NCBI GenBank assembly: GCA_913778495.1
Contig: CAJYVD010000013.1
Coordinates: 293,832 to 357,831 of the forward strand
Reading direction: 5' to 3'
Length of the DNA stretch: 64,000 nt
DNA from: an uncultured Pantoea sp.
GTDB lineage: Bacteria; Pseudomonadota; Gammaproteobacteria; Enterobacterales; Enterobacteriaceae
Positions 35,651-45,273 of the stretch are shown in pieces. Numbering within the stretch: position 1 is the stretch's first letter; each line of letters starts with the position of its first letter. A model generated the notes under the pieces. That model worked only from the letters and a program-made list of their open reading frames with translations, made no database searches and was not told where the DNA came from. A program made the position numbers and the translations under genes.

Positions 35651-36295
35651 GCCATACCTCAGCCGGCAGGAATCTTGTGCATAGCATGCCAAAAGCGTGC
35701 GGCGCTAAAGCGTGGATTAAGCGCATTAAAAGCGAGTTTATTTAGCCATAAGTGAAATTAATTTCCTTACGGGTCGCCTTACTACGCGTTATTAGGAGGG
35801 GCTGGAACAAAAAAGCGCGCCGCTCAGCACGCCACCGCGATTGCGGCTGCCAGCAAAAGGCATGCCGACATCACACAGAGCAGAGGAAAAATCGTCTGGG
35901 AAAGTCCTAAACTGATAAATTTGTTTCATTGCAGATGCTTTTTTTACGCCGCTAAATAGATTAACATTGCTAACGATTAATTCGCACTCTGCTCGGCAAA
36001 TGATGGACTATTTAGGACTTGTTTATTCGACCTGTTTTTTATAAATCAATTTGCCTTATGTGTTGGAATTAAGCCTGTATTATCAGGCCCGTTTTCACCC
36101 CTTTTTCCGCCTTCTAGCATGGCTTTTCCTTTGATGCAATGGATTGAATTCTCAAAAGTCTTAGGTAGACTGAGTACAGCACTATCTTTCTGTAATCTGT
36201 CTGTTTTTTTGATGGCTTTCTCGCTGCCCTGCCCGCTCGCAATACCGCGTATCGGGTAAATTACTCTGCAGCTAATCTGATGAAATTTGAGGAAC
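35651..36295. other. 645-base gap between flhB and the type VI-like cluster
   Basis: No gene is called. It holds the flhB promoter region, an orphan minus-strand terminator (35809-35835), and the promoter of the lipoprotein gene. A 112-codon minus frame (36046-36384) runs antisense into the lipoprotein gene and looks like chance. A 45-codon minus frame starting near 35929 overlaps the terminator and has no ribosome site. Confidence 0.6.
35809..35835 (-). terminator. Orphan minus-strand terminator upstream of flhB
   Basis: GCGTGC and GCGCGC (one G-T pair) with a six-base loop, followed by six T on the minus strand. It would stop a transcript coming from above flhB, but no gene ends there. In E. 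coli the cheZ operon ends at this place, so it may be a relic of that end. Confidence 0.6.
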
Positions 36296-36787
36296 ATGGT
36301 GAATAAGAGTCTCGTGCTAACGCTGTTCGCAGTGTTAACGTTGGCGGGTTGTAAAACGCCTCCGCCGTCGGTTACTGATGACACGCTGGTAACCAGTGAA
36401 GTGAATGGCGTTAAGCTGGTTCACCGTCATGCGGTGGCAGCACCGGGCGAGTTCACGCCGATTAATGCCAGCTATCGCGCACTGTATGCCGCCTCCGTTA
36501 TGACGACACCGGATTACGGCGGTAAAGTCGTGCGCTATTTGGATAATGCCCAATCGTTTCAGGTATTGGGACGCGTCGAGCACAGCTGGTTAGCCATTGC
36601 GGACGAGCCAGACGGTCAACTTATTGGGTACATTCCTCCTAAAGCCGGCGTTGAGAGCACCCGCTACGATGCCACCCTTCGCAGCGATCGCCCGCGCCCG
36701 CGCCGCGCTAAACAGGTTTGTGTTGCCGTTGGAGGCGCCAGCAAAGCCTGCCGTGCCAACGACACGGCGACCTGGATTCTGGATTAA
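36296..36787 (+). CDS. Lipoprotein with SH3-like domain, first gene of type VI-like cluster
   Basis: A 163-residue protein. Residues 1-22 form a lipoprotein signal (SLVLTLFAVLTLAGC) with lipobox LAGC, and the residues after Cys (KTPPPS) suit outer-membrane sorting. The middle part (ASYRALYAASVMTTPDYGG, VLGRVEHSWLAIA, GYIPPKAG) reads like a bacterial SH3 fold. The C-terminus has a Cys pair (QVCVAVGGASKAC). It takes the place a TssJ lipoprotein would hold before tssL-tssM but does not resemble TssJ. GTG at 36299 is an equally good start (GAGG six bases away). A long nested hairpin separates it from tssL. Confidence 0.72.
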   Translation: MVNKSLVLTLFAVLTLAGCKTPPPSVTDDTLVTSEVNGVKLVHRHAVAAPGEFTPINASYRALYAASVMTTPDYGGKVVRYLDNAQSFQVLGRVEHSWLAIADEPDGQLIGYIPPKAGVESTRYDATLRSDRPRPRRAKQVCVAVGGASKACRANDTATWILD

Positions 36788-36791
36788 AGAT

Positions 36792-36852
36792 GCAATACGG
36801 CATCGCCTGTCTGCAGCAATGTGACGCTGCAGACAACGCACGATGCCGTTGC
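36792..36852 (+). other. Nested 60-base inverted repeat before tssL
   Basis: An inner stem of ten perfect pairs (TGTCTGCAGC at 36808-36817 with GCTGCAGACA at 36826-36835) sits inside an outer stem CGGCATCG/CGATGCCG extended by GCAA/TTGC with a two-base bulge. There is no T-run; the tssL ribosome site GCAAGGAA begins at its edge. Confidence 0.75.
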
Positions 36853-36870
36853 AAGGAATAGTTAGATTCA

Positions 36871-38082
36871 ATGACACCGGATACGGTTGTTCGCGAAGGC
36901 ATTGTCGCGAGCAACGATAATCTCTTGCTTAATGCCGCCGCACCTATTCTGAATGCCGTTGTTCGCATCCGGCAGGCCGGCACGCACGACGATCCCGCCG
37001 GGCTGCGCCACTCCCTTATTGAAGAGATTCGTCAATTTGAGCAACGCTGCAAGCAGGCGGGCTTGCCGTTTGAAATGATCATCGGCGCCCGCTACTGCCT
37101 GTGCAGCGTGCTGGATGAGGCCGCCGCGCAAACACCGTGGGGCACGCGCGGCGTCTGGTCTGGCAACGGGATGCTGGTCACTTTCCATAACGAAAGTTGG
37201 GGCGGCGAAAAAGTGTTTCAGCTACTTTCCCGCGTCTCGCAGAGTCCTCAGCAGCATCTTTGGCTGCTGGAAATTATTCATTACTGTCTGCTGCTGGGTT
37301 ACGAAGGCCGCTATCGCGGCAGTGACAGCGGTCGCGCGCAGTGTGAAGGCATCCGCAAACGTCTGGCGCAGTTGATTGCCGAAACGCGGCCCGCTCACCA
37401 ATCCAGTACACCGTTGGTCGAAGTGCATCCGCTGGTAAGCAGCCTGACGCGCCCCATGGTGCCGCTGTGGGCGTGCATGACGCTCGCCACCCTGATTGCC
37501 TGTCTGGTGTACAGCGGGCTCAACTGGCGGCTGGGCAATGCCGCCGAACCGCTGCTGCGGGATATCTATGAAATGCCGCTGCCACAAATCATGCCAGGCC
37601 GCCGCCCTACTTCACCGCAGGCGCTGCTGGATATGCATCAGCGCCTGAACGATGTGATTGCCGCCGGTCAGCTTGAAGTTAGCGACGGCGCGTTTGGCAG
37701 TAAAGTGATCATTCCAGCCGATAAGCTTTTCGCCGCCGATGGCACCGTCGTGAATCAGGTGGGGCGCGCGCTACTGGCGCATGTGGCGAGCGCGATGAAA
37801 ACCGTCAAAGGCACGGTGCTGGTTTCCGTTTATACCGACAATAGCCCGGTGGACGGTCGCTTCGCCTCAAGCTATGAGTTCTCGCTGGCGCGAGCGCGGG
37901 CAGTGACTCAGCTCCTGAATCCTCAGCTCTCCGACGGCCACAGCGTAAAAGCTGAAGGGCGCGGCGACAGCAATCCTTTACTGCCCAACGACAGCAATGA
38001 GAACCGCGCCCGCAATCGCCGGGTTGAAATTACCTTATTTGCGGCCCCCGAAACCCTCAGTAATCATCCGGGAGGTCAGTGA
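36871..38082 (+). CDS. tssL: TssL/DotU-type protein with C-terminal OmpA peptidoglycan-binding domain
   Basis: A 403-residue fusion. Residues about 1-180 are DotU-like: NAAAPILNAVVRIRQAG, a central ARYCLCSVLDEAAAQTPWG and a LGYEGRYRG motif typical of TssL. One membrane helix follows near 195-218 (MVPLWACMTLATLIACLVYSG). From about 277 an OmpA-like domain ends in the GRGDSNPLLPNDSNENRARN peptidoglycan-binding signature. In type VI systems TssL joins TssM and TssJ in the envelope-spanning complex and the OmpA part anchors it to the wall. It shares one base with tssM (TGATG). Confidence 0.92.
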   Translation: MTPDTVVREGIVASNDNLLLNAAAPILNAVVRIRQAGTHDDPAGLRHSLIEEIRQFEQRCKQAGLPFEMIIGARYCLCSVLDEAAAQTPWGTRGVWSGNGMLVTFHNESWGGEKVFQLLSRVSQSPQQHLWLLEIIHYCLLLGYEGRYRGSDSGRAQCEGIRKRLAQLIAETRPAHQSSTPLVEVHPLVSSLTRPMVPLWACMTLATLIACLVYSGLNWRLGNAAEPLLRDIYEMPLPQIMPGRRPTSPQALLDMHQRLNDVIAAGQLEVSDGAFGSKVIIPADKLFAADGTVVNQVGRALLAHVASAMKTVKGTVLVSVYTDNSPVDGRFASSYEFSLARARAVTQLLNPQLSDGHSVKAEGRGDSNPLLPNDSNENRARNRRVEITLFAAPETLSNHPGGQ

Positions 38083-40196
38083 TGCGCGCATCGCTGCAAC
38101 ATGCCTTAACTCACCGTCTTCTGTGGAGCTTGATTGGCGTCACCGCGCTGAGCTGCGTGCTGTGGATGCTGGGTCCGCTCTGGACGTGGGGCGACACCCG
38201 CCCGCTTGAGCCGACGCTGCCACGCCAACTGCTGGTGGGTCTGCTGTTTTTGTGTTGGGTACTTTTCCAGTTTATCCCTGCCCTGTGGCGCGGTTGGTTT
38301 AACAGTAAAATGCTGACCCAGCTGCAAGCCTCCGGCAGTGACGAACTCTCTGACCGTCAAGCCACGGAAACCTTGTTAGCCCAGCGTTTTAGCGAAGCCG
38401 CACTGCGGCTCAAGCGTACCCAGTTTGGGCGCCAGCACCAAAAAAGTTGGCTGGCTCGCTTCCAGAGTCACTACCTGTACCAGCTACCGTGGTACGTGAT
38501 CATCGGCGCGCCAGGCGCGGGTAAAACCACGGCGCTGCTCAATGCGGGCCTCTCTTTTCCTGTGACCGACAGCTCAGGTAACGCAGCGATTCGCGGCGTC
38601 GGTGGCACGCGCCACTGCGACTGGTGGTTTACCGACGATGCCGTGCTGATCGATACCGCTGGGCGCTACGCGTTGCAAGAGAGCCAGCGCGCGCGCGACG
38701 GTGCGGAGTGGCAAGGCTTTATCAATCTGCTGAAGCGCTATCGTACCCGTCAGCCGATCAATGGCGTGATCATGACCATCAGCGTGGCCGATCTGCTCAC
38801 CGATTCCGCTGAGGCGCGCCATGCGCAAGCGAGCGCGCTGCGGCAACGCATGCTTGAGCTGCATCAGCAGACCGGCATTCATTTTCCGGTGTATGTGATG
38901 GTGACCAAAACCGATCTGCTGAAGGGCTTTATGAGTTTTCACGCCGGTTTAAACAAAACCCAGCGCGATGCGATTTGGGGCTTCACGTTTCCCTGGGAAC
39001 CCGGTAAACCTCACAAAGAGGACTGGCACCAGAGCTTTCGCCAGCGCTATCACCGCCTGGAGCAGCAACTGTATCAGCAGCTCACGGGCATCATGGCGCA
39101 GGAGCGCGATCTTACTCGCCGTGCCGACAGCTTTCTGTTTCCGCAAGAGTTTGGCTCACTGCGTCCGCTGTTAAATGAATATCTGGATGTGGTTTTTTCA
39201 CGTCGCGACGACGATATTGCATGGGCGGCGCGCGGGCTGTTCTTTACCAGTGGCACCCAGGAAGGCTTGCCGTTTGACCGCATCATGGGTGAGCTAAACC
39301 GCAAATTGCAATTGCCGCACACCGGCGAAAACAGTCTCGCCGCGTGGGACAGCGTCAATCGCAATAACCCTATTCCCGGCAGCAAAGGCCAGAGCTATTT
39401 CATCCGTGATTTACTCAGCGATCTGGTGTTTCGCGAAAGCGGACTGGCCGGAAGTAATCGCCTGTGGGAGTACCGCAACCGACTGTTCCACTGGATCGGT
39501 TACGGCGTGCTGACCGGCGCCCTGTTGCTGCTATCAGGATTGTGGATCACCAGCTACTACCAAAATCAGCGCTACCTGCATCAAGTCGAGGCACGCATTG
39601 CGCCATTGACGCAACAAAGTCAGCAGGTGATTCATCAGCCAGCCGATAATATCTTTGATCTGCTACCCTTCTTAAATAGCCTGGTGAAATTGCCGCTGTC
39701 GGAGCGTTTTTCCCTCGACAATCCGCCGCTTACCATGCGGGCTGGGTTATACCGTGGCAGTCAGGTGAGTGATGCAGCTTGGGTGCTTTATCAAAATGCG
39801 CTTAAGTCTTTGTTGCTTCCGCGCGTCGCGCAGCAGATCACCAATTTTCTGCGTGACGACCCCGGTACAGACAATGAATACAGCCGTAACGCGTTACGCG
39901 CTTATCAAATGCTCTACCAGCCGCGCAACTACGACGGGGAGTTTTTACGCAGTTGGCTGATGCAAAATTTACAGCGCAAACTGCCCGACAACGTTAGCGT
40001 GCGCGATTTACAACAGCTCGACTGGCATCTCAGCCAGCTGCTGGACCAGCAAATACAGTCATCACCCTATGCGCGTGACAACGCACTAATGATGCGCAAG
40101 CTGGCAGAAAACTTGAAAAATGCCGGTAATGAGAGCGACACGTTCGGCGTGGTGCCGCAAGCTGTTTCCCAGCGATTAACCGGACAACGTGAGTAA
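38082..40196 (+). CDS. tssM: TssM/IcmF-type protein, C-terminally short
   Basis: A 704-residue protein; typical TssM has about 1100-1200. Two N-terminal helices (LLWSLIGVTALSCVLWMLG; LLVGLLFLCWVLFQF) are followed by a cytoplasmic GTPase-like domain with Walker A GAPGAGKTT near residue 142, DAVLIDTAGRY near 190 and VMVTKTDLL. A third helix lies near 470-493 (IGYGVLTGALLLLSGLWI). Only about 210 residues follow in the periplasm, so the usual C-terminal half with the TssJ-binding region is missing. No frameshift is seen and tagF follows at once, so this looks like a stable short form. Start is ATG at 38082 behind GGAGG. Confidence 0.9.
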   Translation: MRASLQHALTHRLLWSLIGVTALSCVLWMLGPLWTWGDTRPLEPTLPRQLLVGLLFLCWVLFQFIPALWRGWFNSKMLTQLQASGSDELSDRQATETLLAQRFSEAALRLKRTQFGRQHQKSWLARFQSHYLYQLPWYVIIGAPGAGKTTALLNAGLSFPVTDSSGNAAIRGVGGTRHCDWWFTDDAVLIDTAGRYALQESQRARDGAEWQGFINLLKRYRTRQPINGVIMTISVADLLTDSAEARHAQASALRQRMLELHQQTGIHFPVYVMVTKTDLLKGFMSFHAGLNKTQRDAIWGFTFPWEPGKPHKEDWHQSFRQRYHRLEQQLYQQLTGIMAQERDLTRRADSFLFPQEFGSLRPLLNEYLDVVFSRRDDDIAWAARGLFFTSGTQEGLPFDRIMGELNRKLQLPHTGENSLAAWDSVNRNNPIPGSKGQSYFIRDLLSDLVFRESGLAGSNRLWEYRNRLFHWIGYGVLTGALLLLSGLWITSYYQNQRYLHQVEARIAPLTQQSQQVIHQPADNIFDLLPFLNSLVKLPLSERFSLDNPPLTMRAGLYRGSQVSDAAWVLYQNALKSLLLPRVAQQITNFLRDDPGTDNEYSRNALRAYQMLYQPRNYDGEFLRSWLMQNLQRKLPDNVSVRDLQQLDWHLSQLLDQQIQSSPYARDNALMMRKLAENLKNAGNESDTFGVVPQAVSQRLTGQRE

Positions 40197-40209
40197 AAGT
40201 GAGGTAACC

Positions 40210-40908
40210 ATGGCGACACAGACCACGCCGGGTTGGTACGGCAAGTTACCGGCAACCGGTGATTTTCTCCGCCAGCGCCTGAGTGAGCAGATCGTGACGC
40301 CCTGGAGCCACTGGTTTCAGCAGGGATTACTGCAGTGGCAGCAGCAGCGCGATGCGTCGACGCCGCTGTTTCTGCGCGCGCCAGTATGGAACTTTGTCTT
40401 ACCGCTCTCGCCCCTCCGACCGCAGATCCAGATGGGCTGTTTACTGCCCTCCTGCGATCGCGTCGGGCGCTGTTGGCCGCTGCTGGCGCTGCGCAGTTTT
40501 CACTTAAGCCAGTGGCATCGTGCGCAGCTGGCGATTTCCGGTGACTGGTTTCAGGATCTGGGCGCCGTCATGCTGCAGGCGGTACGTGGTCGTCTTTCAC
40601 CGGATATACTGGAGCAACAGATCCAGGCGCTTTCGCCCCTGATGGTGCCTGAACCGCGCGGCAGCGACATCATGGAGATCATTGGATTCGATGACTTGCC
40701 CTGTACCTTGAGCTGGCGCGAAGTGGCGGAAAGTTTCGATCCCCAGCAGCATATTAGCTACTGGTGGAGCAATCGCAGCGACGGGTTTACACACGCAACT
40801 CACAAACACAGTGGGCCGCTTACCGCGCAACTTTTTTCGTTATTGTTTAACCCGGCGGCAGGTGCACAGCCGGGACGCAACGGCCTCTATCCACCGATGT
40901 TTGAGTAG
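40210..40908 (+). CDS. tagF: TagF-type type VI accessory protein
   Basis: A 232-residue protein with the family start GWYGKLPATGDFLRQRLS and the CDRVGRCWPLLAL block of TagF/ImpM (DUF2094). In Pseudomonas, TagF represses type VI assembly through the FHA protein until threonine phosphorylation relieves it. It starts at ATG 40210, four bases after GAGGT; the frame opens earlier inside tssM. It lies 13 bases after tssM. In some species TagF is fused to PppA; here they are separate genes with the FHA gene between. Confidence 0.88.
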   Translation: MATQTTPGWYGKLPATGDFLRQRLSEQIVTPWSHWFQQGLLQWQQQRDASTPLFLRAPVWNFVLPLSPLRPQIQMGCLLPSCDRVGRCWPLLALRSFHLSQWHRAQLAISGDWFQDLGAVMLQAVRGRLSPDILEQQIQALSPLMVPEPRGSDIMEIIGFDDLPCTLSWREVAESFDPQQHISYWWSNRSDGFTHATHKHSGPLTAQLFSLLFNPAAGAQPGRNGLYPPMFE

Positions 40909-40941
40909 GCCGCCGCGTTTTCCTTGTTAACGGGATGACTC

Positions 40942-42057
40942 ATGCAATTTACCATTGTCCAAAGCAATACGGATGTGCCCGCCACAACCGTCACGTTTAA
41001 ACCGCCGGGAGGACGTATCGGTCGTAGCCCTGACAATGACCTGGTGCTACCGGATACGTCACGCGCGATTTCGCGTTTGCAGGCACTGGTGCATCTTTCT
41101 CATGAGGGTGAGTGCCGCCTGACCAACCAGGGCAGCGTGACCGCCGTGGTGGTGAACGGCGAAGTGCTGCCGCGGGGCGTGCAGATCAGGCTGCAGCACG
41201 GGGATACGATTGCCATTGGTGAGTATGGTCTGGAAGTGCGCGACCCGGCCCATCATGATAGCCGCCACGACGATCCGCTGGCCTTCTTCGCCGACAGCAG
41301 TAGCGACCCTTTGGGGCTTACGCTTCCTCCAGAGCAGGTATCAGACGTGATATCCCCGCGAGCAGAAAAACGCAGCGACCCACGTCTGGATATCGATCCT
41401 GCCGAAGATACCACCGCTGCGCTCGCGCCGCTGGCTGATACCGACCGCGACAAGCTCATTGCCGCCCTGTTTGAGGGCATGGGGCTAAATAATCGTCAAT
41501 CCGCCGCCATTACCGAAGAGCAGATGCGGGTGACGGGACGGATGCTTAGCCTGTTTTCACAGGGTACGGTCGCCCTGCTTTCATCCCGCTCGATTCTCAA
41601 GCGCGGCGTGAAAGCCGACATGACCATGATTCTTAACGAAGCCAACAATCCCTTCAAAATTCTGCCTTCGGGCAAAACCGTGCTTATGCAAATTTACCAA
41701 AGCCAAATGCCGGGCTTTATGCCGCCCGAGGCTGCGGTGCGCGACGCGCTGGTGGACCTCCAGGCGCATCAGCTGGGTATGATTGCCGGCATCCGCGCCA
41801 TCATTGCCGCCATGTTGCAATCTTTTAATCCCCAGCGCCTTGAAGACGTCGCTCGGGAAGAAGGCGTATTGCCCAAGCTGCATTTCAGTAGCGGACGCAA
41901 GGCGGCGCTGTGGGACTATTTTTCCCGGCATTACCAGCGCACCGCTGGCGAAATTGAAGATGATTTCCATACGCTGTTTGGCGAAGCCTTCCTGCATGCT
42001 TACGATATGGAAGTTAATCAGTACAAAGACTCACAAACGCGGACCGAAGACGCATGA
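40942..42057 (+). CDS. FHA-domain protein of type VI type (TagH/Fha-like)
   Basis: A 371-residue protein. Residues 1-95 are a forkhead-associated domain with GGRIGRSPDNDLVLPD and SRAISRLQALV; the phosphothreonine-contact Arg and Ser are kept although the usual His of SRxHA is Gln. A linker of about 95 residues, rich in Asp, leads to the type VI FHA C-terminal domain from about 170 (DKLIAALFEGMGL...EVNQYKDSQTRTEDA). FHA proteins bind the phosphorylated form produced by PpkA. Its stop overlaps pppA by four bases. Confidence 0.9.
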   Translation: MQFTIVQSNTDVPATTVTFKPPGGRIGRSPDNDLVLPDTSRAISRLQALVHLSHEGECRLTNQGSVTAVVVNGEVLPRGVQIRLQHGDTIAIGEYGLEVRDPAHHDSRHDDPLAFFADSSSDPLGLTLPPEQVSDVISPRAEKRSDPRLDIDPAEDTTAALAPLADTDRDKLIAALFEGMGLNNRQSAAITEEQMRVTGRMLSLFSQGTVALLSSRSILKRGVKADMTMILNEANNPFKILPSGKTVLMQIYQSQMPGFMPPEAAVRDALVDLQAHQLGMIAGIRAIIAAMLQSFNPQRLEDVAREEGVLPKLHFSSGRKAALWDYFSRHYQRTAGEIEDDFHTLFGEAFLHAYDMEVNQYKDSQTRTEDA

Positions 42058-42830
42058 AAATGATGTTTTCCAGCCGGTGTCAGCAGGGCATGCGTAATGA
42101 AAATCAGGATCGCACCGGCATTGAGTTAAATGAGCATACCGCCTGTTTTCTGGTCTGTGACGGCGTCGCGAGCTTGCCCGGAGGAGAGTTAGCCGCTCAA
42201 ATTGTTCGCGATTCGCTGCTTGAGCAGCTGCGCGACAGCGAAGGCTTTACCCCCGCGATGACCCAGGCGGCGATAGAACAGTGTCAACAAACGCTACTGG
42301 CGGCACAGGGAACAAATCCGAAATATGCCCGCATGAGCACCACGCTAGCAGCCCTGTTTATTGACCGAAAACAGCAACAGGCATGGTGGGCGCATGCAGG
42401 CGACAGTAGGGTTTATCACTTCCGGCACGGGGTGCTTTATCAGGTCACTCGCGACCACAGTCTGGCGCAGCAGTTACATGAAGCAGGCTATGAAAATGCC
42501 GGAATTAACAGTAATTTACTTTATAATGCTCTCGGCGTAGAACCCGCGCAGCCGGTGACGTTTAGCGACGTAATTACCCTGACTGACGGCGATGCTTTTT
42601 TGGTCTGTACCGACGGATTCTGGCTTAACTTGACCACGCAAGAAATGGAACACGCTTTGCGCATGGTCAACGCCTGTGAAGAGTGGCTTACGCTTATGGA
42701 GCAGGCCATCAATCGCAGCGTGAAAAGTGACAATCTTAGCGCCCTCGCGGTGTGGATTGGCGAACCGCAGGAAGCAACGCTGTTTTATTCTCAGGCGGAT
42801 GTGGCACGTTTTCTGCCGACCCGTTATTGA
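42054..42830 (+). CDS. PP2C-type Ser/Thr phosphatase (PppA-like)
   Basis: A 258-residue PPM phosphatase. Metal-binding motifs are visible: RNENQDR at the N-terminus, LVCDGVASLPGGE (the DG motif), WAHAGDSRVYHFR, LVCTDGFW and the C-terminal SDNLSALAVWIG. In type VI post-translational control PppA removes the phosphate that PpkA places on the FHA protein. It overlaps the FHA gene by four bases and precedes an exported unknown protein. Confidence 0.92.
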   Translation: MKMMFSSRCQQGMRNENQDRTGIELNEHTACFLVCDGVASLPGGELAAQIVRDSLLEQLRDSEGFTPAMTQAAIEQCQQTLLAAQGTNPKYARMSTTLAALFIDRKQQQAWWAHAGDSRVYHFRHGVLYQVTRDHSLAQQLHEAGYENAGINSNLLYNALGVEPAQPVTFSDVITLTDGDAFLVCTDGFWLNLTTQEMEHALRMVNACEEWLTLMEQAINRSVKSDNLSALAVWIGEPQEATLFYSQADVARFLPTRY

Positions 42831-42844
42831 TTCCAAGGATCCCT

Positions 42845-43795
42845 ATGAAAGTGTGGTTGTCGGGCTTAGCAATCTTGTTGCTGGCTCTGAATGCGCAAGC
42901 GGATGATTATCGTGTGGTTTACTCACCCAGTCTCTCACTGGAGGTGTATATCGATGATGTCGCGAGCAACGCGCCTGACGCTTGGTGTAAAGAGACGCTG
43001 CCGCTGCGCATTGTGTCGGGCAAAAGCACCGACGCTGCCATACTCACCAGTTTTCTGCCGCGCGTAGGTACGTTGCTGGCCAATCAGTGCGGCTTGCTGG
43101 ATGAAATCCCCTGGCAACTGACCAACAAAGACGGTGCCGTATTAGCCAACGGCAGCGCAGCAAAACTGCAAAATTGGCGTCCGATCATCCTGAACGACGC
43201 CAAAGATCTCGTACGCGCCGACGGTGGCGCTGCGGCCGCGCAATCCGCGCCTGCAGATACCACGCCGCTGCCCCATTTTGCGCTGCCCGCGGGCTGTCAC
43301 TTCCGCACTTGGTGGGATGAAAAAGGTGAATCGCTGTTTATTCCTGATACCCCTCAGCAGCACTGCTCTACCGAAGGCTGGCTGGAGGGGGCAAGCACCA
43401 TGACGCTGACCGGCACCAAAGGTGCGCGTTCCCTCAATGTCATTTTTTATCAGGGCTACCCGCTGGCGGGATTAGCCCTCGGCACGACCCCGTTGGACGT
43501 GGTCTCGGTCAACAACCAGCGCATGATTCTTACCCGCGCAGATGCGACCGGCAGCTGGCTGGTCCTGCCTTTTGATGCGCAGCAGCACGTGTGGCGCTTT
43601 GACGGCACGCTGTTGATTAGCATGAATAAAGGTGCGGCTCAGGATCCTCAGTCCATGCAAAAACGTATTGAAACCTTACGCGGTGCCTGGTCACCGATAT
43701 TTATGCCACAGCAAAAAGTGACAGTGTTACTGATTGACACTCTGCATGCGGATCGCGCCGATCCCACGGTGGGTGCCTGGCGTAACATTAATTAA
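42845..43795 (+). CDS. Exported protein of unknown function in the type VI-like cluster
   Basis: A 316-residue protein with a signal peptide (KVWLSGLAILLLALNAQA, then DDY) starting at ATG 42845 behind AAGGA. The mature part begins YRVVYSPSLSLEVYIDDV and contains several Cys (DAWCKETLPLR, NQCGLLDE, GCHFRTWWDE, QHCSTEGW) that could form disulfides in the periplasm. The C-terminus is QQKVTVLLIDTLHADRADP. I do not recognise the family. It sits 14 bases after the phosphatase and 65 before the kinase, so it may be a periplasmic partner of the kinase's external domain. Confidence 0.7.
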   Translation: MKVWLSGLAILLLALNAQADDYRVVYSPSLSLEVYIDDVASNAPDAWCKETLPLRIVSGKSTDAAILTSFLPRVGTLLANQCGLLDEIPWQLTNKDGAVLANGSAAKLQNWRPIILNDAKDLVRADGGAAAAQSAPADTTPLPHFALPAGCHFRTWWDEKGESLFIPDTPQQHCSTEGWLEGASTMTLTGTKGARSLNVIFYQGYPLAGLALGTTPLDVVSVNNQRMILTRADATGSWLVLPFDAQQHVWRFDGTLLISMNKGAAQDPQSMQKRIETLRGAWSPIFMPQQKVTVLLIDTLHADRADPTVGAWRNIN

Positions 43796-43860
43796 TTAGC
43801 GGTCGTTGCCTGCCGTCACCCCGTGACGCGGCGTTACAGGACGTGTTCAGAGAGTTCACT

Positions 43861-45273
43861 ATGTCGGCAAACGAAAACCATATACCTCACGCCCTCCCTG
43901 CGGGCTACCGGTTTAATGAATTTGAAATCAAGGAAGTGATTGGCGGCGGCGGCTTTGGCATCGTCTACCGTGCATGGGATCATCAACTTGAACGCACCAT
44001 TGCTATCAAAGAGTACATGCCCGTTTCGCTGGCGATGCGCGGCGAAGATCTCTCTCTGGAACTGCGCGGTGACCGTTTTCAAAAACTGTTCAACGCCGGG
44101 CGTAATAGCTTTATCCAGGAAGCGCGCTTACTGGCGCGCTTCAACCACCCCGGCCTGTTGCATGTATTGCGCTTTTGGGAAGAGAACGGCACCGCCTACA
44201 TGGGGACGCTTTACTACAGCGGCATGACGCTGAAAGAGTGGCAAGCCACCCAGCCTGAGAGCATTGAGGAAGCGTGGATCCGCCGCCTGCTTCCCCCGCT
44301 GTTTGGTGCCATTAACACCATCCATACAGCAGGTTATCTCCACCGCGATATCTCGCTCGACAACATTCAGATTCAGGATAATCAGCTGCCGGTATTACTC
44401 GACTTTGGCTCTGCTCGCAAAGAGATCGGTAACCTGTCGGATGAAACCGAGATCATGCTGAAGCCGGGCTTTGCGCCTATTGAGCAATACAGTGAAGAGG
44501 GCGAAATCGAACAAGGCCCGTGGACAGACATCTACGCCTTAGGCGCCGTGCTGCACAGCCTTATCGTAGGGCATGCCCCGCCGGTTAGCGTGGTGCGCTG
44601 CATTGAAGATAATTATCAGCCGCTGGTTGAACGTAAGCCAGCAGGCTATTCGCTGCCGCTGCTGCACGCCATTGATTCGGCATTAGCCATGGCGCCCGGC
44701 GATCGCCCGCAAAGCATCGACGCCTTTGCTCAACTGATCGATTTGCCGGTGAGCGATGTTGAAGCGCTGGTGACCCGAATTCCTCCGGTTGAGGCGCCGT
44801 TACCGGTGGCGGAACCGGTGATGTCGGTGCCGGAACCCCATGTCATTACGGTGAATCATGGTTCCCCCGTGCCAGAGCCGGTGACGACGCGCCATGCGCG
44901 ACGTCTGTCCCCGCCACTGCTGGCTGCCGCCGCCATTGCCCTGCTGGCTGTGGTCGTGGTGGTGTGGAAAAGCCATCGCCCGGCCAACGCGCCGCCCGTG
45001 GCCATCGCTCCCGCGTCAAGTCTGCCTGCAGACGCGCCCGCTGGCGCAGCAACAGCGCCTACTGTGGCCACGGTTTATCTGCGCCTACAGGGTGGCGAGA
45101 ATATTGTCCTGAACGGTGTGGCTAAAGACGTGAAGCCCGCCAGCAGCGGGTTCGCATCGCTAAATTTGGCAGCAGGCAGTTACCGTATTGAAGTGCATCA
45201 GGGTAGCCAGGTGCGCAGTCAATCCTTAACTATTGACCACCCCGGCACCTGGCTGATTAACCCCGGTAATTAA
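43861..45273 (+). CDS. Transmembrane Ser/Thr protein kinase (PpkA-like)
   Basis: A 470-residue protein. The kinase domain (about 17-290) has the glycine loop GGGGFGIVYRA, catalytic Lys50 (AIKEYMP), HRDISLDNIQI from His161 and DFGSAR from Asp181, so it should be active. A Pro-rich linker and one membrane helix (about 352-372, LLAAAAIALLAVVVVVW) lead to a periplasmic domain of about 95 residues with YRIEVHQGSQVRS. In type VI systems PpkA phosphorylates the FHA protein when an envelope signal is sensed. ATG 43861 follows GAGAG; it is the last gene of the cluster and converges on chaC. Confidence 0.92.
   Translation: MSANENHIPHALPAGYRFNEFEIKEVIGGGGFGIVYRAWDHQLERTIAIKEYMPVSLAMRGEDLSLELRGDRFQKLFNAGRNSFIQEARLLARFNHPGLLHVLRFWEENGTAYMGTLYYSGMTLKEWQATQPESIEEAWIRRLLPPLFGAINTIHTAGYLHRDISLDNIQIQDNQLPVLLDFGSARKEIGNLSDETEIMLKPGFAPIEQYSEEGEIEQGPWTDIYALGAVLHSLIVGHAPPVSVVRCIEDNYQPLVERKPAGYSLPLLHAIDSALAMAPGDRPQSIDAFAQLIDLPVSDVEALVTRIPPVEAPLPVAEPVMSVPEPHVITVNHGSPVPEPVTTRHARRLSPPLLAAAAIALLAVVVVVWKSHRPANAPPVAIAPASSLPADAPAGAATAPTVATVYLRLQGGENIVLNGVAKDVKPASSGFASLNLAAGSYRIEVHQGSQVRSQSLTIDHPGTWLINPGN

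Follow-up and report, generated by a model that had tools for sequence, protein, structure and literature searches.

We have analyzed a group of eight genes within 64,000 nucleotides of DNA from an uncultured Pantoea species (contig CAJYVD010000013.1, positions 293,832 to 357,831 of the forward strand; we call this whole stretch the window). The locus is the already known T6SS-2 of Pantoea and Erwinia, all eight of whose syntenous genes are present, and it is a mostly vertically inherited derivative of the membrane and threonine phosphorylation block of a type VI secretion system (T6SS). As a secretion system it is incomplete; the tail genes, TssJ and the TssJ-binding end of TssM are missing. 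From comparison with its relatives the locus looks actively maintained, with purifying selection in every gene, and the module probably still performs some function. Our best reading, held with about even confidence, is that the genes encode a secretion-incompetent, envelope-sensing phospho-regulatory complex that is independent of any one particular tail.

A membrane and phosphorylation module lacking a tail

The eight genes occupy positions 36296-45273 on the forward strand, and all of their open reading frames (ORFs) are open and point in the same direction. The gene list and coordinates given in the initial annotation, which was made from the letters alone, agree with the families assigned using Pfam and NCBIfam profiles at their curated cut-offs (Table 1). 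Its statement that overlaps or gaps are below 90 bases is also borne out, with overlaps of 4-8 bp and gaps of 14-83 bp. Genes 1 and 2 are separated by 83 bp, genes 4 and 5 by 33 bp, genes 6 and 7 by 14 bp, and genes 7 and 8 by 47-65 bp depending on the start of gene 8, the first ATG of which lies at about 43861. Genes 2 and 3 overlap by 4 bp, as do genes 5 and 6, and genes 3 and 4 overlap by 8 bp.

PpkA, PppA, Fha and TagF, the threonine phosphorylation pathway, are all four encoded, with their catalytic and binding residues conserved. Gene 1 scores 205.7 bits over nearly the whole of the NCBIfam TagV model NF041850; the equivalog cut-off of 300 bits is not reached, and the product is named TagV-like only. 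Its SH3_3 match lies under the Pfam cut-off, and its paralogue stands at the head of a T6SS-1 locus. The nearest named locus among the best 80 stretches is that of Pantoea sp. Mb-10, with a TssM that is 96% identical.

Gene 7 had been listed as an exported unknown. It matches no Pfam or NCBIfam family above the curated cut-offs, in keeping with that description, but it can now be identified. Gene 7 is RtkS, on the combined basis of its fold, its sequence and its position between pppA and ppkA. The counterpart in T6SS-1 is 30-37% identical. An AlphaFold2 model (mean predicted local distance difference test score, pLDDT, of 82.5) matches the RtkS crystal structures 9k1u, 9k0l and 9k1p, with a best E of 4.3e-21, a TM score of 0.93 on the target and 39% identity, and a profile built from 30 orthologues retrieves RtkS as well (E 5.5e-53). 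The last 77 amino acids of PpkA match the kinase chain 9k1u_D of the RtkS-PpkA complex (E 6.2e-17), and conservation thus extends to the sensing end of the switch. RtkS of Serratia is described as a periplasmic protein that binds and stabilizes PpkA and is required for proper phosphorylation of Fha (PMC6082577).

The window TssM is much shorter than the 1209-amino-acid T6SS-1 paralogue of another Pantoea (G392). It has PF14331 and the first 144 of the 308 positions of PF06761, with the later portion of the periplasmic region, the rest of PF06761 and the whole of IcmF_C (PF06744) absent, whereas the T6SS-1 TssM has all three domains. Against TIGR03348 it scores 633.7 bits (cut-off 388.15) over model positions 1-630 of 1168 only, and the Walker A motif GAPGAGKTT is retained. 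Similarity to long TssM stops near residue 676, the same point in the six T6SS-2 sequences displayed, and the length is 687-707 amino acids in 47 of the 48 named T6SS-2 loci. The contact with TssJ has been placed in the last 150 residues of TssM (PMC4256274), and no TssJ family match was found among the eight window genes. Rescue of TssM by a frameshift was considered and rejected. No lost domain lies downstream, because tagF overlaps the end of tssM by 8 bp. An AlphaFold2 model of the short TssM has a mean pLDDT of 63.5; a fold search with this model returned nothing at E <= 0.001, and a sequence search of the PDB gave no match. The cytoplasmic domains of TssL and TssM are well conserved.

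Fha is shortened too, with 371 amino acids against 623 in the T6SS-1 paralogue. Most of the linker is lost, and the FHA and T6SS_FHA_C domains are retained. Thr198 (window numbering) is invariant in the 48 T6SS-2 sequences and is replaced by Phe in the T6SS-1 paralogue.

Table 1. Genes of the T6SS-2 locus and its upstream block, in window coordinates.
Feature	Position	Strand	Length (amino acids)	Description	Basis
Upstream block	36144..36171	+		28-bp conserved block, candidate promoter/operator (TTGAAT - 16 bp - TAGACT)	starts 152 bp upstream of gene 1
Gene 1	36296..36787	+	163	TagV-like lipoprotein with SH3b domain	NF041850, SH3_3, T6SS-1 paralogue
Gene 2	36871..38082	+	403	TssL, DotU domain and OmpA domain	PF09850 212.7 bits, PF00691 32.4 bits
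Gene 3	38079..40196	+	705	short TssM	PF14331, partial PF06761, TIGR03348
Gene 4	40189..40908	+	239	TagF	PF09867 120 bits; TIGR03373 113.4 (cut-off 41.2)
Gene 5	40942..42057	+	371	Fha/TagH, short linker	PF00498, PF20232; TIGR03354 above cut-off
Gene 6	42054..42830	+	258	PppA, PP2C phosphatase	PF13672 55.8 bits; conserved motifs
Gene 7	42845..43795	+	316	RtkS, periplasmic activator of PpkA	position, paralogy, structure
Gene 8	43843..45273	+		PpkA, transmembrane Ser/Thr kinase, RtkS-binding-type periplasmic domain	PF00069 77.4 bits

Selection, descent and the upstream block

We compared the locus with its relatives using 77 named loci fetched by TssM similarity from the best 80 stretches. Of these, 48 form the T6SS-2 subset on which the census is based, and the other 29, which are T6SS-1-like or more distant, fall outside it. 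The 48 orthologous loci come from Pantoea, Mixta, Winslowiella and Erwinia, with a few labelled Enterobacter or uncultured, and the eight genes recur in identical order in these related genera, beyond what chance would give. Genes 1 to 8 are intact in 46, 46, 47, 48, 47, 45, 46 and 42 loci, respectively. Contig ends (L048, L059, L063 and L089) account for nine of the 17 misses, and damage or loss is found at L040 (tssL), L057 (ppkA), L061 (tssM), L064 (tagV) and L077 (several genes). Downstream of the module lies chaC in 42 of the 48.

The median ratio of nonsynonymous to synonymous substitution (dN/dS) ranges from 0.068 to 0.142 across the eight genes, compared with 0.030-0.12 for six flanking genes. 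These are pairwise Nei-Gojobori values for pairs with dS of 0.1-0.9, which are not independent of each other, and the flanking flhA and flhB were recovered in just 7 and 8 loci. What we take to be the signature residues of the Walker A, kinase, PP2C and FHA motifs are conserved over 43-48 sequences per gene for seven genes; TagF was compared separately, and its motifs are kept too. The initial annotation had held that all motifs needed for activity are kept, which it took as an argument against decay, and on both counts the wider comparison agrees with it. It had named widespread frameshifts in relatives as the sign of a relic; each gene is in fact intact in at least 42 loci. Taking the low dN/dS together with the frame census, we reject decay.

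The short TssM proteins form one clade with support of 100/100 that broadly follows the genera, which argues for one old origin followed by mostly vertical descent. A short protein from a 716-amino-acid frame (L027) groups inside this clade. The program that built the tree warns of meeting long branches.

When 18 upstream regions are aligned, nearly the sole conservation is a 28-bp block upstream of gene 1, TTGAATTCTCAAAAGTCTTAGGTAGACT, together with a few bases around it. It is exact in 27 of the 48 orthologous loci and present with <=6 mismatches in 45, missing at L074, L076 and L078, and it was not found at six loci of T6SS-1 type (L081, L082, L084-L086 and L114). In its own genome it is a single site at up to 3 mismatches, and the reversed control gave none. 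The block is probably a promoter with an operator. A sigma-70 scan did not list the 36144-36171 block, and the promoter and terminator scan gave two promoter-like sites where 5.2 were expected.

Tail genes and the role of the module

The genome that carries the window (4.09 Mb in 41 contigs, 93% complete) has one match each to TssC, TssB, TssF, TssK and Hcp. All lie on another contig, C4, and none in the window, just as the initial annotation had stated for the window; its proposed genome-wide search for tssB, tssC and hcp thus returns single copies there. On C4 we also saw vgrG and clpV, at which no genome-wide search was aimed. The genome encodes two TssM proteins, one full-length on C4 (a 1151-amino-acid frame) and the short one in the window, which do not match each other at E <= 1e-20. 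Comparison of the eight window proteins with C4:15000-54999 gave a match to an OmpA domain only, and no relative of Fha, TagF, PppA or PpkA was detected in these 40 kb of C4. The initial annotation had offered service to a tail encoded elsewhere as one of two options. The module is not the missing half of one such system, since a full-length TssM belongs to the C4 tail itself and, of the 55 Pantoea genomes with an intact module, 23 lack a long TssM of T6SS-1 type.

Within the C4 tail locus clpV/tssH is divided into two ORFs in the same frame (L002 10776-13598), matching TIGR03345 positions 1-327 and 344-850. The split may be an in-frame stop or an assembly error, and the single tail of this genome may be impaired. 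Genes for a Tli1a-family immunity protein and a Tla1 chaperone lie near vgrG (L002 2188-4240), adjoined by an 843-amino-acid ORF with no NCBIfam match at E 1e-10.

The module occurs with different kinds of tail and with none found. Among 61 Pantoea genomes, 58 contain the short TssM, which is intact in 55, broken in G413, G421 and G432, and absent from three reduced genomes of 1.4-2.9 Mb (G418, G429 and G431). A long TssM of T6SS-1 type, at >=49% identity, accompanies the intact short form in 32 of the 55; the 23 genomes without it have other TssC types or none. TssB, TssC and TssF were all not found in nine genomes (G397, G411, G413, G432, G440, G441, G418, G429 and G431), which we call tail-less on that basis; TssK and Hcp were searched for in six of the nine. 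The cleanest tail-less case with an intact module is P. eucrina Russ (G397, locus L050; 8 contigs, 99% complete). All eight genes are intact, none of TssB, TssC, TssF, TssK and Hcp was found when all five were searched for, and the dN/dS of the module is 0.03-0.13 against P. eucrina LMG 5346 (L046). P. latae (G411, L054) also has eight intact genes with TssB, TssC, TssF and TssK not found. G441 (L063), 91% complete, gave no match for any of the five tail families; a contig end truncates its module, leaving five intact genes. Two genomes counted as tail-bearing are incomplete in this respect, G400 having TssF without TssB or TssC, and G394 having half a TssC beside its TssB. In G367, G394, G398, G434 and G447 the tssC matches are partial or split, and some of them may be decayed tails.

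From work on Serratia, Agrobacterium and Pseudomonas (as described in PMC6082577 and PMC5995506) the working of such a complex can be outlined. TagV and the OmpA domain of TssL would tie an inner-membrane complex of TssL and TssM to the cell wall. RtkS would sense the state of the envelope and activate PpkA, which may then phosphorylate Fha or TssL, with PppA reversing the reaction. Fha would gather on TssL and TssM, and TagF would bind Fha and oppose assembly. Assembly at the inner membrane would be possible without TssJ, baseplate or tail, but firing would not. Because the TssJ-binding end of TssM is missing no trans-envelope channel is expected, and the output would therefore have to lie in the phospho-state or in the complex. 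As to its history, we suggest tentatively, with something short of even confidence, that the base and phospho-switch of a T6SS became an independent envelope sensor, with its own promoter, in an ancestor of Pantoea, Mixta, Winslowiella and Erwinia, and that this sensor has outlived the injector, with no tail gene found in some lineages.

The initial annotation had raised an independent envelope complex as one of two options. Purifying selection, a private upstream block and an intact module without a detected tail gene speak for it; the greater frequency of module damage in tail-less genomes does not. Among the 9 tail-less genomes TssM is broken or absent in 5, compared with 1 among the 52 others (Fisher p 1.2e-4). 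If only breakage is scored the counts are 2 of 6 and 1 of 52 (p 0.026), and neither value is corrected for ancestry or genome reduction. These tables score the module by TssM, and tail-less P. stewartii (G440, L064), which has a degraded tagV, thus counts as intact. Such damage may stem from decay of the genome at large, or the presence of some tail may truly matter to the module. Several other observations tell against independence or a signalling role. P. latae retains five hcp genes despite its tail-less count, and its loss of the tail may be recent. In a wider sample of the family the short TssM is found in 20 of 392 genomes (with at most two candidates scored per genome), all 20 having at least one TssC. 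A canonical phosphosite in Fha was sought and rejected; no linker Thr is conserved in both T6SS-2 and T6SS-1, and the site was not located. In E. amylovora and E. pyrifoliae only four genes of T6SS-2 are described as left, and the icmF of E. pyrifoliae is frameshifted (PMC3235180). Finally, P. ananatis LMG 2665, from which our locus L065 comes, reportedly showed unchanged onion pathogenicity and competition after the cluster was deleted (PMC9837560, at second hand).

It is possible, though rather doubtful, that the module is instead a regulator of, or a donor of subunits to, a co-resident T6SS, with kinase, phosphatase and TagF tuning that system or the short TssM mixing with the full-length protein. 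Secretion by C. rodentium is described as needing both a truncated (807-amino-acid) and a full-length TssM (PMC4256274), the cytoplasmic domains of TssL and TssM are well conserved, and the damage in tail-less genomes points the same way. Compared with the T6SS-1 paralogues, the kinase (77%) and FHA_C (74%) domains are most alike, and the C-terminal domain of RtkS (33%) and periplasmic domain of PpkA (42%) are much less so. One switch with a second input would account for such a contrast, but constraint is distributed in the same way within T6SS-2, so the comparison does not separate signalling from service. Against a service role, the module is retained beside T6SS-1, beside other types of tail alone, beside both together, and where none was found. 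Moreover the only tail in its own genome has its own TssM and no detected relative of the four switch proteins in the 40 kb compared, and the reported deletion had no competition phenotype. We favour a signalling role over service to resident tails, and consider the two remaining explanations unlikely.

The reading that the locus has no function and is decaying after a partial duplication of T6SS-1, in line with the 2011 description of it as potentially non-functional, is strongly disfavoured, and we regard it as very improbable. It could draw on the fact that just four T6SS-2 proteins are counted among the conserved T6SS components, on the genes lost from E. amylovora and its group (both PMC3235180), on the three Pantoea genomes with a broken TssM, and on the lack of a reported deletion phenotype (in the account of PMC9837560). 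Yet dN/dS is well under 1 in every gene, the genes are intact in 42-48 of 48 loci with more than half of the misses at contig ends, the upstream block is conserved, and a single shortened form of TssM is retained across several genera. Dismissal as a relic is thus not supported. We also judge it very improbable that the module is a distinct secretion or transport device, in which TagV replaces TssJ and the short TssM passes a borrowed tail or another substrate. Serratia TagV supports residual TssJ-independent firing, but it did not interact with TssL or TssM (both in PMC7614798). TssJ, TssK and tail genes are not in the module, the part of TssM that meets TssJ is gone, and TssB, TssC, TssF, TssK and Hcp were searched for and not found in P. 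eucrina Russ.

The data on selection and distribution indicate that T6SS-2 serves some purpose in most Pantoea. Should it be an independent sensor, the membrane base and kinase switch of a T6SS are useful apart from firing a tail, and species such as P. eucrina, in strain Russ, would allow signalling through TssL, TssM and Fha to be studied without a confounding tail. If it regulates resident tails instead, T6SS control in Pantoea has an unrecognized second input.

Comparison with known systems

The reduced T6SS loci of Pantoea and Erwinia mentioned in the initial annotation correspond to the T6SS-2 of De Maayer 2011. It was described as a syntenous set of eight genes shared by Pantoea and E. 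billingiae, was called "partial and potentially non-functional", and may have arisen by partial duplication of T6SS-1 (PMC3235180). The 9-kb version in P. ananatis was named PA T6SS-3 (Shyntum 2014, PMC3942780), and a four-gene version was put aside by Kamber 2017 (PMC5561584). The window holds the same kind of locus, of about 9 kb, as an orthologue in another Pantoea species. The label T6SS-2 is ambiguous, having also been given to a complete plasmid-borne cluster in P. ananatis (PMC3942780) and, in P. allii, to a locus of 10-78 kb that is apparently a different one (PMC12873547). In the part of the literature surveyed we found neither a selection analysis of T6SS-2 nor an account of its presence in tail-less genomes, and the passages found of a quorum-sensing transcriptome paper do not mention the locus.

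A close counterpart is the regulatory block of Serratia marcescens Db10, with the same TagV, TssL, TssM, TagF, Fha, PppA, RtkS and PpkA (PMC6082577, PMC7614798). There it is part of a functional antibacterial T6SS with a tail and TssJ, whereas in the window both are absent and TssM is short. The T6SS-1 of Pantoea (G392) shares the relative order of the eight genes, and aligned pieces of its proteins are 37-62% identical to those of the window. It has TssJ, TssK, TssB, TssC, TssF and Hcp between those genes, and the window locus is without them. In CTS1 of Citrobacter rodentium a TssM without the TssJ-binding end has a function, but there the short form is a slippage product of one gene, made beside the long form (PMC4256274). 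The short TssM of the window is unlike it, in that there is no downstream TssM sequence to reach and tagF starts directly. To the known T6SS-2 the present analysis adds the identity of RtkS and the TagV-like protein, the mapped shortening of TssM, tests of selection, the upstream block and the occurrence with and without tails.

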